From: Archangium lipolyticum
GTDB taxonomy: Bacteria > Myxococcota > Myxococcia > Myxococcales > Myxococcaceae
Reading direction: 5' to 3'
NCBI RefSeq assembly: GCF_024623785.1
Contig: NZ_JANKBZ010000001.1
Span: forward strand, 372,001 to 436,000
DNA: 64,000 nt
Under the pieces are notes generated by a model. That model saw only the letters and a list, made by a program, of their open reading frames with translations. It was not told the DNA's origin and did not search any database. The translations under genes and the position numbers were made by a program. Positions 1 through 5,432 of the stretch are shown here, piece after piece (position 1 is the first letter of the stretch; each line of letters begins with the position of its first letter).

Positions 1-2
1 GC

Positions 3-506
3 GCCGGGCGCAAGGGCTCGGAGGACATGAGCTTCAGCGAGGTGGACGAGGACTTCCGCGCCTACCGCGTGCTGCGCCACCAGCACACGCCGGAGATCGC
101 CCAGACGCTCGCCCTCACGGCCGGCCGGAAGGTGCCCCTGACGTTCACCGCGCACCTGCTGCCGCTCAAGCGGGGCATCCTCGTGACCGCCTACGCGCGC
201 CTGCGCCCGGGAGCCACCGCCGCCGAGGCCCGCGCCGCGCTGGAGCAGGCCTATGCCTCCACTCCTTTCGTGACGGTGGAGTCCTCGCCGGACGCGGTGG
301 GCCTGAAGGCCGTGGTGGGCACCAACCGCTGCGTGGTGGGCCTGGCCGCGGACAACACGGGGTTCGACCCGGGCCGCGTGGTGGTGACGGCCGCCATCGA
401 CAACCTGGTGAAGGGGGCGGCCGGACAGGCCGTCCAGAACCTCAACCTCATGATGGGGTGGGACGAGACCCAAGGCCTCTCCACCCTGCGGGGTTTCAAT
501 CCGTGA
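3..506 (+). CDS. argC: N-acetyl-gamma-glutamyl-phosphate reductase, C-terminal part
   Basis: This is the last 167 codons of ArgC; the frame is open to the left edge of the window, so the gene starts outside. ArgC reduces N-acetylglutamyl phosphate to the semialdehyde with NADPH in arginine synthesis. The visible part holds the family's substrate-side segment (FTAHLLPLKRGIL, then TAYARLR) and the closing region ending NLMMGWDETQGL, typical of ArgC C-termini. The N-terminal NADPH fold and the catalytic Cys lie off the window. Its TGA overlaps the GTG of the next gene (GTGA at 503-506), so the two are translationally coupled. The identity is secure because the next four genes are also arginine genes. 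Confidence 0.93.
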   Translation, partial: AGRKGSEDMSFSEVDEDFRAYRVLRHQHTPEIAQTLALTAGRKVPLTFTAHLLPLKRGILVTAYARLRPGATAAEARAALEQAYASTPFVTVESSPDAVGLKAVVGTNRCVVGLAADNTGFDPGRVVVTAAIDNLVKGAAGQAVQNLNLMMGWDETQGLSTLRGFNP

Positions 507-2578
507 AGGTGCCGCTCGGCTTCTCCTTCTCCGGCACGCATGCCGGCCTCAAGCCCCAGCGCAAGGACGTGGCGCTCGTCTACAGCGACACGCCCTGCTC
601 CGCCGCGGGCTGCTTCACCGCCAACAAGGCCAGGGCCGCACCGGTCCAGGACGCCGAGCCCCGCCTGCCCGCCACGGGCATCCAGGCCGTACTCATCAAC
701 TCCGGTAACGCCAACGCCCTCACCGGCCCCTCGGGCCTGGAGGACGTGCGCACCCTGCTGGCGGAGACGGCCCGGGTCCTCTCCGTGCCCGCTTCCGCCG
801 TGCTGTCCGCCTCCACGGGGGTGATCGGCCACCCGCTGCCCGTGAACAAGGTGCTGGCGGTGCTCGGGCCGCTCAAGGGCGCCCTGCGCGCCGAGCCCGA
901 TGCGGCCGCCGAGGCCATCATGACCACCGACACGCGCCCCAAGCAGGCGTGGCGCGAGGTGCGCATTGGCGGGCGGGACGTGACGGTGTCCGCCATCTTC
1001 AAGGGCTCGGGGATGATGCACCCGTCGCTGGCGACGGTGATCGCCGTCATCACCACCGACTGCGCCATCCAGCCTGGAGCGCTCGCGGGTGCCCTGCGCG
1101 AGGCGGTGTCCTCCACCTTCAACAGCCTGACGGTGGATGGGGACATGAGCCCCAACGACACCGTGTACGCGCTGGCCAATGGCCGCGCCGGCAACCCGGC
1201 CATTACGGCTCCGGGGCCGGAGCTGGACGCCTTCACCGCCACGTTGTCGGACCTGTGCCTGGAGATGGCGCGGGAGATTGCCTCGGATGGCGAGGGCGCC
1301 ACCAAGCTGCTCGAGGTGAAGGTCTCGGGAGCGCCCACCGGGGCCATCGCGCAGGATCTGGCGAGGTCCGTGGCCGGCTCCACGCTGGTGAAGGCCGCGG
1401 TCTTCGGGGCGGATCCCAACTGGGGCCGCGTGCTGGCGACCGTGGGAGCGCGCGCCGGCACGCAGGGCTACGAGGTGGATCCCTACTCGGCCCGGGTCCG
1501 CATCCAGGGCATCACCGTCTACCAGGGCCAGCCCCAGCCGCACGATCCCGGGCAGCTCAAGGCGCGCATGCGCGAGCCCGAGGTGCACATCGAGGTGGAG
1601 CTCACCAGCGGCGAGGGCTCGTCGGTGGCCTGGGGGTGCGATCTCTCGTACGACTACGTGAAGATCAACGCGGACTACACCTCGCTCATCATCCCGAGAC
1701 CGGATGGAGGCGTGGGCAAGGACGATCGGCTGGCCAACTACAGCCCCGCGTTCAAGACGACGCTGCTGGTCGAGGCGCTCTCGTACATCTCGCGCTTCAA
1801 GGGCAGGCGCTGCGTCATCCGCTTTGGCGGCGCGGCCATGGTGAAGGAGAACCTCAAGCAGTCCTTCTGCCGGGACATCGAGCTGCTGCGCTCGGCGGGC
1901 CTGCAACCCATCATCGTGCACGGCGGCGGGCCGGAGCTCACCCGCACGCTGGACAAGCTCGGACTGCGGCAGGAGGGCGAGCTCATCACCGACGACTCGG
2001 GCCTCAAGGTGGTGGAGATGGTGATCTCCGGCTCGGTGAACTCGGAGCTGGTCACCCTGCTCAACAAGCTGGGAGACCGGGCGGTGGGCCTGTCCGGCAA
2101 GGACGGGGCGCTGCTGCGGGCGCGGCGGATTCCGGGTGACGACGGACGCGCCAAGGAGCACGTGGGCGAGGTGACGCGCGTCAACCACGAGTTCCTGGAG
2201 ATGCTCCTGGGGCAGGGCTACGTGCCGGTCATCTCCCCCATGGGGTTGGGCGAGGACGGGCAGACGTACGATCTGGGCTCGGACGCGGTGGCCTCGGAGC
2301 TGGCCAGTGCCCTCAAGGCGCACAAGCTCGTCTACCTGCACGATGCGCCGGGCATCCTCCGGGGCGAGGAGCTGTTCTCGGAGCTCACCTCGGCGCAGCT
2401 GGAGGCGCACCTGCTGGCCGGGGCGTTCTCCGGGAGCATGCAGACGCGCTCGAGGATGGCGCTGAAGGCGCTGAGCGCTGGCGTGGAGCGCGTGCACATC
2501 ATCGACGGGCGGGTGCCGCACAGCTTGATCGCCGAGCTCTTCACCGACAAGGGCGTGGGAACGCTCGTCACCCGTTGA
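503..2578 (+). CDS. argJB: fused glutamate N-acetyltransferase / acetylglutamate kinase
   Basis: One uninterrupted 691-aa frame joins ArgJ to an ArgB-like kinase. ArgJ recycles the acetyl group from acetylornithine to glutamate; ArgB phosphorylates acetylglutamate. The ArgJ half (about 1-400) keeps the self-cleavage site (SLATVIAV, nucleophile Thr178) and ends in the usual YVKINADY. After a short linker the kinase half (from about 425) has an N-terminal helix like that of arginine-inhibited kinases (VEALSYISRFKG), the HGGG loop and the conserved Asp of the ATP site. Two lysines essential in characterised kinases appear as Arg here (CVIRFGG, Arg440; SGSMQTR, Arg649). GTG 503 is chosen because it overlaps the argC stop and matches ArgJ N-termini; an ATG at 458 would overlap argC by 49 bp. 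Whether the kinase half is active is open. Confidence 0.9.
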   Translation: MKVPLGFSFSGTHAGLKPQRKDVALVYSDTPCSAAGCFTANKARAAPVQDAEPRLPATGIQAVLINSGNANALTGPSGLEDVRTLLAETARVLSVPASAVLSASTGVIGHPLPVNKVLAVLGPLKGALRAEPDAAAEAIMTTDTRPKQAWREVRIGGRDVTVSAIFKGSGMMHPSLATVIAVITTDCAIQPGALAGALREAVSSTFNSLTVDGDMSPNDTVYALANGRAGNPAITAPGPELDAFTATLSDLCLEMAREIASDGEGATKLLEVKVSGAPTGAIAQDLARSVAGSTLVKAAVFGADPNWGRVLATVGARAGTQGYEVDPYSARVRIQGITVYQGQPQPHDPGQLKARMREPEVHIEVELTSGEGSSVAWGCDLSYDYVKINADYTSLIIPRPDGGVGKDDRLANYSPAFKTTLLVEALSYISRFKGRRCVIRFGGAAMVKENLKQSFCRDIELLRSAGLQPIIVHGGGPELTRTLDKLGLRQEGELITDDSGLKVVEMVISGSVNSELVTLLNKLGDRAVGLSGKDGALLRARRIPGDDGRAKEHVGEVTRVNHEFLEMLLGQGYVPVISPMGLGEDGQTYDLGSDAVASELASALKAHKLVYLHDAPGILRGEELFSELTSAQLEAHLLAGAFSGSMQTRSRMALKALSAGVERVHIIDGRVPHSLIAELFTDKGVGTLVTR

Positions 2579-2602: not shown

Positions 2603-3088
2603 GTGAGTCCGACCCGGAACAATGGAGACAAGGCAGCGCGCCAGGACGCCATCCGCCGCGTCATCCGCACGCACGCGGTGGCGACGCAGGAGGAGCTGGG
2701 GCAGTTGCTGGCGCGCGAGGGCTTCGACGTCACACAGGCCACGCTGTCGAGGGACCTGGCGCAACTGGGGGCCATGAGGGTGTCGAGGCCCGAGGGCGGC
2801 ACGGTCTACGGACTGGGCGAGGCGCCTCCCCCATCGGGCGAGGCGCGGCTGCTGGAGCTGGGGGAGATGATCCTCACGGTGGAAGACAACGAGATGTTGG
2901 TGGTGGTGCGTACGCGACCGGGCTCGGCGCCCCCGGTGGCGGCGGCCATCGATCATGCCCGGCTGGCCGAGAGCCTGGGGACGATCGCCGGAGATGACAC
3001 CATCTTCGTCGCCCCGGCCCGTGGGAAGTCGGCCCGTACGCTGTCCAGGAAGTTGAAGGCGCTCTTCGGAAAGGAAGAAACCCCGTGA
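2603..3088 (+). CDS. argR: arginine repressor ArgR
   Basis: A 161-aa ArgR/AhrC-type regulator. The N-terminal half is a winged helix with the diagnostic helix containing ATLSRDLAQLG (residues about 49-59). The C-terminal half is the oligomerisation and arginine-binding domain, with the hallmark GTIAGDDTIF near residues 132-141. In the family, arginine binding lets a hexamer repress biosynthetic genes. It starts at GTG 2603, 24 bp after argJB, and its stop overlaps the argH start (GTGA at 3085-3088). Having the repressor inside the biosynthetic operon implies that it regulates its own synthesis, which is inferred. Length is normal for the family. Confidence 0.93.
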   Translation: MSPTRNNGDKAARQDAIRRVIRTHAVATQEELGQLLAREGFDVTQATLSRDLAQLGAMRVSRPEGGTVYGLGEAPPPSGEARLLELGEMILTVEDNEMLVVVRTRPGSAPPVAAAIDHARLAESLGTIAGDDTIFVAPARGKSARTLSRKLKALFGKEETP

Positions 3089-4530
3089 CGATTGCCAAGA
3101 CGGCCGCCTCCGGCGGATCCGGCCTCCACCCGGAGGTGCTGGCATTCACCAGCTCGCTGTCGCTCGACAAGGCCCTCCTGCAGGAGGATCTGGTGGGAAG
3201 CCTCGCGCACCTCACCATGCTGTCGCGCACGCGCATCATCCCCTCGGAGGACGCGAAGGCCATCCGCGAGCAGCTGGTGACCATCTGGAAGGCCGCGCAG
3301 GCCGGCACGCTCGTCCTCGCGGACGAGGAGGACGTGCACATGGCCGTGGAGGCGGAGATCACCCGCGTCCTCGGGGAGCGAGCGGGCCTGCTGCACACGG
3401 CGCGCTCGCGCAACGACCAGGTGGCGTTGGACCTGCGCCTGCACGTGCGGGAGAAGGTGGCCGAGGCGCTCGGGGTGGTGGCGAAGCTGCTGGAGAGCCT
3501 GGCGGCGCGGGCGGAGGCGGAGCGCGGGACGATTCTTCCCTCGTACACGCACCGGCAGAGGGCGCAGCCGATCTCGCTGGCGTACCTGCTGTGCGGGTAC
3601 GGGGCGATGTTCGCGCGGGATGTGGACGGGCTGGGCTTCGTGCTGGAGCAGGTGTCCTCGCTGCCGCTGGGCGTGGGGGCGATTGGAGGCACGTCACTGC
3701 CCATCGACCGCGAGGTGACGCGCGAGCTGCTGCGCTTCCCGCGGATGACGATGAACGGGCTGGACACGGTGGGGGATCGCGACTTCGCGATGGACTTCGC
3801 GTACGCGGCGATGCGCTCGCTGCTGCACGCGAGCCGGGTGGCGACGGACTTCTACGACTTCGCCTCGCCGGAGTTCGGCTTCGTGAAGCTGGACGGGGAG
3901 ATCGCCTGTGGCTCGAGCATGATGCCGCAGAAGCGCAACCCGGACGTGTTCGAGCTGATCCGGGGCAAGTCGGGACGCGCGGTGGGCAACCTGAACAACC
4001 TGGCGGTGCTGGTGAAGGGGTTGCCGGGCGGGTACAGCCGGGACCTGCAGGAGGACCGTCAGGTGCTGTTGGAGACGGGGCCGCTGCTGACGAGCGTGCT
4101 GTCGATGCTGAACCTGGCGTTGGGGAAGGTGTACTTCGACAAGGAGAGGTGCCTGGCGGCGGTGGAGTCGGACTACACGCAGGCAACGGACGTGGCGGAG
4201 GCTCTGGCGATGAAGGGGATTCCCTTCCGGACGGCGTACAAGGCGACGGGGGCGCTGGTGAGGGCGTGCCAGGAGAAGGGGCTGCCGCTGGCGAAGGTGA
4301 CGCTGGAGCTGGCACAGTCGGTGGATCCGCGTTTCGACGCGGAGGTGTTGAAGAGCGCGGATCCGCGGCGGGCGGTGGAGCGCAAGGCCAACGCTGGGGG
4401 AACGGGACCGGCGTCGGTGGAGAAGCAGATAGTCGAGTTGAAGTCCCACGCGGCACGGGCGAGGACGATGGCGGATGCCATTCCCCGGCTCGGGTCCCTC
4501 TTCGAGTCCTTGCAGGAGGCAGCACTGTGA
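3085..4530 (+). CDS. argH: argininosuccinate lyase
   Basis: A 481-aa member of the fumarase/aspartase superfamily that splits argininosuccinate into arginine and fumarate, the last step of the pathway. The signature loop GSSMMPQKRNPD, which carries the catalytic Ser, is present near residues 276-287. An upstream TARSRNDQV segment (residues about 99-107) matches the substrate-binding region. The usual N-terminal WGGRF motif is replaced by HPEVLAFTSSLS, so the N-terminus is slightly divergent. The start is the GTG overlapping the argR stop, and the gene's own TGA overlaps the next GTG (4527-4530), so argR, argH and argF are coupled in series. Confidence 0.96.
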   Translation: MTIAKTAASGGSGLHPEVLAFTSSLSLDKALLQEDLVGSLAHLTMLSRTRIIPSEDAKAIREQLVTIWKAAQAGTLVLADEEDVHMAVEAEITRVLGERAGLLHTARSRNDQVALDLRLHVREKVAEALGVVAKLLESLAARAEAERGTILPSYTHRQRAQPISLAYLLCGYGAMFARDVDGLGFVLEQVSSLPLGVGAIGGTSLPIDREVTRELLRFPRMTMNGLDTVGDRDFAMDFAYAAMRSLLHASRVATDFYDFASPEFGFVKLDGEIACGSSMMPQKRNPDVFELIRGKSGRAVGNLNNLAVLVKGLPGGYSRDLQEDRQVLLETGPLLTSVLSMLNLALGKVYFDKERCLAAVESDYTQATDVAEALAMKGIPFRTAYKATGALVRACQEKGLPLAKVTLELAQSVDPRFDAEVLKSADPRRAVERKANAGGTGPASVEKQIVELKSHAARARTMADAIPRLGSLFESLQEAAL

Positions 4531-5432
4531 AGCGCGATTTCCTCACCCTGGCAGACCGTACCGAGGCCGAGTACCGAGCCCTCTTCGAGCGGGCGCACGC
4601 GCTGAAGGCGAGCCGCAAGCGCAAGGAAGTGGTGACGACGCTGGCGGGGCGGCACCTGGTGCTGGTGTTCGAGAAGGCGTCGACGCGGACGCACCTGTCG
4701 TTCGAGGCGGCGATGTACCAGCTGGGCGGCACGGTGACGACGATCACCGCGGGCACGAGCCAGATTGGCCGAGGCGAGACGATCGAGGACACGGCGCGAG
4801 TGATCTCGAGCTACGCGGACTGCATCATGTTCCGCACGTTCGGGGATGATCGGCTGAACGCGCTGGCGAAGGCCTCGAGCGTGCCGGTGATCAACGGCCT
4901 GTCGGAGGGAGGACACCCGGTGCAGGTGCTGACGGACCTGTTCACGGTGGAGGAGCGGCTGGGGAGCGTGAAGGGGAAGACGGTGGCGTTCGTGGGCGAC
5001 TGCGCGAGCAACATGGGCCGGTCGTTCGTGGAGGCGACGCGCTACTTCGGGTTCGACCTGCGGCTGGGGTGCCCCGAGGGTTACCGCCCGTCGGCGTCCC
5101 TGCTGGCCGAGGCGGGAGCGCGAGTGCACGTGACGGCGGACGCGACCGAGGCGGTGAAGGGAGCGGACGTGGTGGTGACGGACGTGTGGACGAGCATGGG
5201 CCAGGAGGCGGAGTCGGCGAAGCGCAAGAAGGACCTGCACGAGTACCAGGTCAACGAGGCGCTGATGGCGAAGGCGAAGCCCGGAGCGATCGTGCTGCAC
5301 TGCCTGCCGGCGCACCGAGGGGAAGAGATCACCGACGGAGTGATCGACGGAGGGCAATCAGCGGTGTGGGACGAAGCGGAGAACCGGATGCACGTCCAGA
5401 AGGCGCTACTGGAGCAGCTCATCCTGGGTTGA
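4527..5432 (+). CDS. argF: ornithine carbamoyltransferase
   Basis: A 301-aa carbamoyltransferase forming citrulline from ornithine and carbamoyl phosphate. The carbamoyl-phosphate loop STRTHLSFE (around residue 52), the HPVQVLTDLFT motif (around 130) and the ornithine-side HCLPAHRGEEI (around 258) are all intact. The GTG start at 4527 overlaps the argH stop and gives MKRDFLTLAD, a normal N-terminus. It closes the arginine operon; a palindromic repeat follows 18 bp after its stop and may serve as the transcript end. argG and argD are not in this window. carB, which supplies carbamoyl phosphate, lies 2.5 kb away on the other strand. Confidence 0.96.
   Translation: MKRDFLTLADRTEAEYRALFERAHALKASRKRKEVVTTLAGRHLVLVFEKASTRTHLSFEAAMYQLGGTVTTITAGTSQIGRGETIEDTARVISSYADCIMFRTFGDDRLNALAKASSVPVINGLSEGGHPVQVLTDLFTVEERLGSVKGKTVAFVGDCASNMGRSFVEATRYFGFDLRLGCPEGYRPSASLLAEAGARVHVTADATEAVKGADVVVTDVWTSMGQEAESAKRKKDLHEYQVNEALMAKAKPGAIVLHCLPAHRGEEITDGVIDGGQSAVWDEAENRMHVQKALLEQLILG

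Follow-up and report, generated by a model that had tools for sequence, protein, structure and literature searches.

A fused ArgJ-ArgB protein in Archangium lipolyticum with a degenerate kinase active site and a kept arginine motif: a putative pseudokinase sensor, possibly acting on ornithine acetyltransferase

In the window analyzed here, a stretch of 64,000 nucleotides from Archangium lipolyticum (NCBI RefSeq assembly GCF_024623785.1, contig NZ_JANKBZ010000001.1, positions 372,001 to 436,000 of the forward strand), a single frame without a stop codon (window positions 503-2578, + strand; 691 residues) encodes ArgJ, an ornithine acetyltransferase, joined to a domain related to ArgB, the N-acetylglutamate (NAG) kinase (NAGK). 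The explanation that we favor, with moderate confidence, is that a fused NAGK has become a pseudokinase arginine sensor, most likely one that gates ArgJ in cis. In the window's family, the ArgJ-ArgB fusion, intact in other families of Myxococcota, would no longer have a functional NAG-kinase active site but would keep the allosteric arginine site, and a separate ArgB without an arginine motif (ArgB2) would carry out the catalytic step. The fused half would assemble through its N-terminal helix, like arginine-sensitive NAGKs, and bind arginine; the arginine-bound half would then, via the linker, most likely turn down the attached ArgJ (ornithine acetyltransferase/NAG synthase). Taken separately, the kinase half is very probably catalytically inactive and is likely an arginine-binding sensor, and control in cis on ArgJ is somewhat favored. 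This scheme would mirror the classical NAG synthase (NAGS) ArgA, with a kinase-like domain gating an acetyltransferase. We know of no arginine-sensing domain in the ArgJ enzyme family.

The ArgJ half matches NCBIfam model NF003802 over residues 2-394 (441.5 bits; cutoff, 351) and TIGR00120 (394.4 bits; cutoff, 298), with the motif YVKINADY at residues 385-392. The kinase half matches the argB model TIGR00761 over residues 437-666 (195 bits; cutoff, 151.3). Frame and matches agree with a sequence-only reading of this DNA, which had described an ArgJ complete through YVKINADY, followed by a linker and an ArgB-like domain, with no stop. A Pfam scan of the fused protein (E up to 0.001) returned PF01960 and PF00696 only; a GNAT acetyltransferase domain was not found. 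The features of the fused gene, all on the + strand, are as follows.

503-1684 (+): ArgJ half, residues 1-394 (NF003802, TIGR00120)
1031-1036 (+): ArgJ autoprocessing site Ala177/Thr178 (chain ends of 1vra and 3it4; invariance in 15 fused proteins)
1685-1744 (+): interdomain linker, about residues 395-414 (low confidence in the full-length model)
1745-2575 (+): NAGK-like (amino-acid kinase) half, residues 415-691 (TIGR00761, PF00696, AF2 model, structural matches)
1745-1792 (+): residues 415-430, predicted helix at the N terminus of the kinase half (positions 28-43 of the half-model, inside the structural alignment with 2bty and 2buf)
1820-1822 (+): Arg440, replacing catalytic Lys8 in E. coli numbering (alignment)
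1982-1984 (+): Leu494, replacing NAG-site Arg66 and adjoining a three-residue shortening of the lid (alignment)
2270-2278 (+): Asp590-Leu-Gly592, replacing Asn158-x-Asn160 (alignment)
2324-2326 (+): Lys608, kept, taken as the arginine-site strand lysine (alignment; role by position from the available part of PMC4490483)
2435-2437 (+): Ser645, replacing Gly213 (alignment)
2447-2449 (+): Arg649, replacing catalytic Lys217 (alignment)
2534-2563 (+): putative arginine-binding motif ELFTDKGVGT, residues 678-687, kept (fits the motif in the available part of PMC4490483)

As the sequence-only reading had also held, both catalytic lysines of the kinase half are arginine: Arg440 aligns with E. coli Lys8, and Arg649 aligns with Lys217. 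Further changes relative to E. coli NAGK are Leu494 for Arg66, Asp590 for Asn158, Gly592 for Asn160, and Ser645 for the conserved Gly213, where Arg66 and Asn158 are positions that we take to bind NAG; the substrate lid lacks three residues. Asp162 (as Asp594), Gly184, and the loop glycines Gly10, Gly11, and Gly43-Gly45 are kept. In the available part of the source, Lys8, Lys217, and Asp162 are given as the catalytic residues of NAGK (PMC3329491). Close relatives share the two replacements, with Arg at both positions in 6/6 genomes of the window's genus, in 4/4 genomes of genus g11, and in the single genome of g4; Lys at both positions, which that reading had named as a sign against its claim, was not seen in these genera.

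The arginine-site motif is described, in the part of the source available, as E-(L/I)-(F/M)-(T/S)-x-x-G-x-G-T, with one lysine in a strand and one glutamate singled out as key residues (PMC4490483). The window sequence ELFTDKGVGT fits this motif strictly, with Glu678 as the key glutamate; Lys608 was assigned as the strand lysine by its strand position rather than by direct alignment to the published protein. Modeled alone with AF2, the kinase half reached a mean predicted local distance difference test score (pLDDT) of 84.9. The best structural matches of this half-model are arginine-sensitive NAGKs, N-terminal helix included (2rd5: Z 38.0, root-mean-square deviation [rmsd] 2.2, 273 aligned; 2bty: Z 37.6, rmsd 2.3, 275 aligned). 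The helix ahead of the kinase fold is present at positions 28-43 of the half-model, within the 2bty alignment, and is of low confidence in the full-length model.

We scored 13 active-site and 8 arginine-site positions across relatives, with V or F allowed at the L/I place of the arginine set and S allowed at its last T. Below, f1, f2, g1, and similar codes denote families and genera, f1 being the window's family, and G and L numbers denote genomes and loci. Among 39 complete fused halves of f1, between 3 and 10 of the 13 active-site positions are kept, and the arginine site is 8/8 in all 39, conservative swaps allowed; the L/I place is L in 24/39, and 15/39 read EFFT...GxGS. This set includes G020, although its ArgJ lies on another contig, and leaves aside G106, whose fused half (L064) is truncated where its contig ends; also outside the counts are G035, in which the frame is broken, and the additional fused copy in G062. 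By comparison, all 12 fused halves read in f2, f6, and f7 keep 13/13 active-site positions, and all 17 read in f5, a subset of the genomes of that family, keep 11/13. Both lysines are present in each of these 29 halves. The losses within f1 vary by genus: RGGGGGLDGDGSR occurs in g1 and g11, and KGRGES-PEDGNK occurs in g5, g13, and g16; Lys8 is replaced by Gly in g7 and by Gln in g8, g34, and g39; and HGGG has become HGES, to give one example of another loss in related genera. Some other f1 genera keep both lysines and have lost other sites.

When the window genome was checked for another argB, an intact ArgB2 was found. This candidate maker of INTERMEDIATE is a second argB at G000:C19:114409-115257 (P0002), which overlaps the end of a second argC. 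ArgB2 keeps 13/13 active-site positions, has no arginine motif, and scores 188.7 bits against the argB model (cutoff, 151.3), and its predicted start lies only 14 residues ahead of the lysine equivalent to Lys8; it is presumably insensitive to arginine. A LysW-type identity was ruled out, as the [LysW]-aminoadipate kinase model gave 119.4 bits against a cutoff of 223. Stand-alone proteins of the ArgB2 type form a consistent set across relatives (46 sequences; active site 12-13/13, arginine site 3-5/8). Of the 40 f1 genomes that have the fusion, counting G020, 33 also have such a partner (12-13/13), and 4 (G008, G016, G043, and G108) have a fragment or interrupted copy.

Outside f1, the single argB match (E up to 1e-20) is the intact fused half in 10/12 genomes of f7 and in the only f2 genome, a count for which not all first-look candidates were scored and with which full scoring agrees for G028, G034, G038, and G023. 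In the remaining f7 genomes, the gene is in two pieces (G113) or no match was obtained (G114). In Polyangium fumosum, the fused half is the only ArgB found. Because the intact fused half is the single ArgB match in f2, most of f7, and Polyangium, the ancestral fusion was probably a functional NAGK. A second argB match is present in both f6 genomes and in most genomes of f5.

The fusion itself is widespread. It occurs in 6/6 genomes of the window's genus, that of the window included, and in one frame in 39/96 genomes of the family, with the halves on different contigs in a 40th (G020). It also occurs in families f2, f5, f6, and f7 of the order, in f9 as a broken frame, and in at least 16 loci among 80 listed, including Anaeromyxobacter soli and Polyangium fumosum. 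A sequencing error at the junction hiding a stop or start, a concern raised in the sequence-only reading, is ruled out by this recurrence in tens of assemblies, across the order and in Polyangium.

To compare retention between sites, we used 101 columns that are invariant in 29 intact fusions and scored them in 18 f1 genera, each represented by its first-listed sequence, with G106 left out. Mean retention was 0.57 for the active site (11 columns), 0.96 for the arginine motif (7 columns), 0.97 for the N-terminal helix (6 columns), and 0.74 for other columns (69). The active site differed from the arginine motif (p=0.008), and the arginine motif differed from the other columns (p=0.011); the contrast resides in the kept arginine site. 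Between close species, the ratio of nonsynonymous to synonymous substitution rates (dN/dS) of the dead half is 0.009-0.178, and across 13 f1 pairs it is lower than that of the ArgJ half in 10, equal in 1, and higher in 2. The low dN/dS and the retention pattern together indicate that the kinase half is constrained rather than decaying, and a decaying pseudogene part is ruled out by dN/dS with the conserved helix and arginine motif. Between f1 genera, the kinase half evolves somewhat faster than ArgJ (distance ratio 1.17, versus 0.89 in f2, f5, f6, and f7). In a tree of the ArgJ half (73 rows, quick method), the presence of Lys8 changes at least seven times and that of Lys217 at least seven times; the backbone is weak, with 21/70 inner branches open and f1 not forming one clade, and these loss counts depend on the tree.

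Several results weigh against the proposed sensor. The 15 f1 halves with EFFT...GxGS match the published motif only with two conservative swaps (F for L/I and S for T). The two lysines are kept in about half of f1 genera (retention 0.50 and 0.61), G016 keeps 10/13 active-site positions, both lysines among them, and retention of active-site columns does not differ significantly from that of other invariant columns (p=0.12). Because Asp162, Gly184, and the glycines of its two loops are kept, the kinase half of the window protein may still bind nucleotide. No ArgB2 was found in 3/40 f1 genomes with the fusion (G041, 98% complete; G103; and G109), in which the fused half is degenerate. As for the models, the half-model has a pLDDT of about 69 in its arginine loop; in the full-length model, pLDDT is under 50 at residues 681-684 and 39-47 over the N-terminal helix, and the predicted template modeling score is 0.52, so the arrangement of the domains is uncertain. 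Finally, g14 and g15 have an unfused dead kinase that carries the arginine motif, and no ArgJ was found in any of their eight genomes, which indicates that a dead sensor can serve a target other than ArgJ.

Of the functions offered by the sequence-only reading, an arginine-sensing regulatory domain is the best supported, given the kept arginine site and N-terminal helix and the low dN/dS; the regulated enzyme may be ArgJ, as that reading had it, or ArgB2. A sensor acting in trans is a serious rival, although we consider it less likely: the dead half would bind arginine, co-assemble with ArgB2, and supply the feedback that ArgB2 lacks, and the fusion to ArgJ would be an anchor or merely historical. 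ArgB2 has no arginine motif, and the 14 residues before its Lys8-equivalent are too few for an N-terminal helix. Further points in favor of action in trans come from stand-alone ArgB3 proteins. Those of g14 and g15 are dead (active site 5-7/13) with an 8/8 arginine site in 8/8 genomes, alongside an intact ArgB2 and with no ArgJ found, whereas in g17, g33, and g38, where no ArgB2 match exceeds 41% identity, ArgB3 reads as intact in 30/30 sequences from the 45 genomes of these groups (13/13 and 8/8). At L089 (g15), the dead ArgB3 gene lies between a gene for N-acetylornithine carbamoyltransferase and a gene resembling the deacetylase gene of L091; this arrangement and the absence of a detected ArgJ in g14 and g15 favor a role on ArgB2 there. 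Against action in trans, ArgB2 is encoded on a different contig. In the genome of L123, moreover, the dead fused half keeps 8/8 even though the intact stand-alone ArgB there also carries an arginine motif, which favors a role on ArgJ. We rank control of ArgJ in cis ahead of action in trans because all complete dead f1 domains read are joined to ArgJ (38/38 in frame, plus G020 across contigs).

The two other functions that we weighed are both far less probable. The fused half might still phosphorylate NAG or some other acyl amino acid, with Arg replacing Lys, and an active variant is among the possibilities that the sequence-only reading had allowed; the TIGR00761 score is over the cutoff, and the window protein retains Asp162, Gly184, the GG loop, and HGGG. 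However, both lysines and the Arg66, Asn158, Asn160, and Gly213 positions are changed, the lid is shorter, other sites are lost in related genera (HGGG to HGES, for example), and the genome has, at another locus, a gene for an ArgB2 whose active site is intact, which together make an active variant very unlikely here. A pure scaffold, which would keep ArgJ in an oligomer or complex without sensing arginine and whose C-terminal motif would be structural, would account for the low dN/dS over the entire half and for the conserved N-helix columns. We regard it as improbable to a similar degree, as the ArgB2-type proteins have an intact active site without the motif, which indicates that the kinase fold alone does not need it. 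Substrate channeling, also raised from the letters alone, finds no support for the dead versions, which are not expected to make the intermediate; it may apply to the intact fusions of other families.

The favored explanation, an arginine sensor fused to ArgJ, can be set beside several known systems. Arginine-sensitive hexameric NAGKs (Thermotoga maritima 2bty, Pseudomonas aeruginosa 2buf, and Synechococcus elongatus 2jj4) share the fold, N-terminal helix, and arginine motif of the window half, with 39-42% identity over aligned chains, whereas the window half has lost the active-site lysines, the presumed NAG-binding residues, and part of the lid, and sits behind ArgJ. The ornithine acetyltransferases 1vz6, 1vra, and 3it4 have the whole ArgJ domain and the autoprocessing site in common with the window protein, which differs from them in its additional C-terminal kinase domain, so that the mature beta chain would carry the kinase. 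In the available part of PMC4490483, the kinase-like domain of NAGS is already described as an arginine sensor, and classical ArgA (e.g., Neisseria gonorrhoeae 2r8v) likewise joins such a domain to an acetyltransferase of the same pathway. In the window protein, by contrast, the acetyltransferase is ArgJ, which has no detectable GNAT similarity and is N-terminal, and the kinase half belongs to the NAGK type. Bifunctional NAGS-K (Xanthomonas and Maricaulis) and the yeast NAGK/NAGS metabolon are described, in the parts of the sources available, as fusing or complexing a first-step acetyltransferase with NAGK under arginine control (PMC1865377; PMC3236213; PMC3329491); they differ in their GNAT-type acetyltransferase, and NAGS-K is described there as an active kinase too. 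In Polytomella, according to the available text, proper arginine sensing by NAGK needs an accessory subunit (PMC7027753), although this is PII rather than a dead NAGK. Within the literature covered, which left most subscription journals outside, we recognized no published description of an ArgJ-ArgB fusion or of a pseudoenzyme NAGK.

More tentatively, myxobacteria may have re-invented an arginine-gated acetyltransferase, with a fused NAGK repeatedly turned into a dead, ArgJ-controlling sensor while an arginine-blind ArgB2 took over catalysis, and with the dead-sensor state arising separately in the stand-alone kinase of g14 and g15. It may be generally true that, where an arginine-blind ArgB exists, the other kinase ends up without catalysis but with its sensor. 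From the intact fused half as sole ArgB to the dead domain with its sensor site, these genomes span a natural series that stays inside a single pathway and phylum, in which the steps from enzyme to regulator are testable. The results also carry an annotation warning: TIGR00761, being over its cutoff, labels the window protein an acetylglutamate kinase despite the lost active site, which matters for metabolic models of myxobacteria.

The processing site of ArgJ is kept in the fusion. The alpha chains 1vra_A and 3it4_A end at the position of residue 177, the beta chains 1vra_B and 3it4_B start at 178, and Ala177 and Thr178 are invariant in 15 fused proteins; since these residues are kept, the mature protein would consist of an alpha chain and a beta chain carrying the kinase half. 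In the full-length model, pLDDT is 37-47 over residues 381-430, as would be the case for a flexible linker.

The fused gene lies in the row argC1-argJB-argR-argH-argF and begins with a GTG that overlaps the stop codon of argC at 506. Its neighbors in the window are as follows.

1-506 (+): argC1, 3' part (TIGR01850 match to 27-506; the gene begins upstream of the window, and the full open reading frame is L041:7395-8507)
2603-3088 (+): argR, arginine repressor, the next operon gene (TIGR01529 at 130.1 bits, just under the cutoff of 130.45; PF01316 and PF02863 over their cutoffs)
3085-4530 (+): argH (TIGR00838, 441.7 bits)
4524-5432 (+): argF, ornithine carbamoyltransferase (NF001986, 410.7 bits)

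Additional copies and broken copies of these genes were seen in several genomes. Many genomes of the family contain two ArgJ genes, one fused and one unfused. In the window genome, a divergent second ArgJ (L278:2239-3558, - strand, contig C35) matches NF003802 at 349.1 bits, just below the cutoff of 351. A second fused ArgJ-kinase gene at L279 (G062:C66) is degenerate (6/13) with an 8/8 arginine site. At L019 (G035, f9), the fused gene is split into two frames within the kinase half, which may be a real break or an assembly error. In three genomes of the window's family (G013, G014, and G073; 90-98% complete), no match to ArgJ or to an ArgB-like protein passed the thresholds applied; these organisms are possibly arginine auxotrophs.

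The arg clusters at L089 (g15), L090 (g14), and L091 (g38) each contain an ArgF-like gene, ArgB3, and argH, with ArgB3 dead in g14 and g15. At L089 and L091, the ArgF-like gene scores 432.6 and 446 bits as N-acetylornithine carbamoyltransferase (cutoff, 288), and ArgB3 is followed by a deacetylase-like gene; this combination suggests an acetylcitrulline route. In the available parts of two sources, Myxococcus xanthus is described as having no ornithine acetyltransferase or as using ArgE instead (PMC1865377; PMC1382215); the lack of ArgJ in g38 would agree with this if that genus were Myxococcus.

On contig C19 of the window genome (L039:7343-9258 and L039:6633-7205), the second argC-argB pair lies away from the arg operon; upstream of it is a divergently oriented GNAT-like gene for which no NCBIfam match was obtained at E up to 1e-8. 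At L290 (G001) and L291 (G084), an extra amino-acid kinase exceeds the argB cutoff (174.6 and 167.8 bits); it has Asp for Asn160, Arg for Gly213, and no arginine motif. A classical ArgA (kinase-like plus GNAT) was not seen among the eight amino-acid-kinase matches of the window genome, although no dedicated ArgA search was made. These eight comprise three aspartate kinases (one of them aspartate kinase/homoserine dehydrogenase-like), the fused protein, ArgB2, and three others, which were named from sequence inspection as aspartate kinase, glutamate 5-kinase, and UMP kinase.

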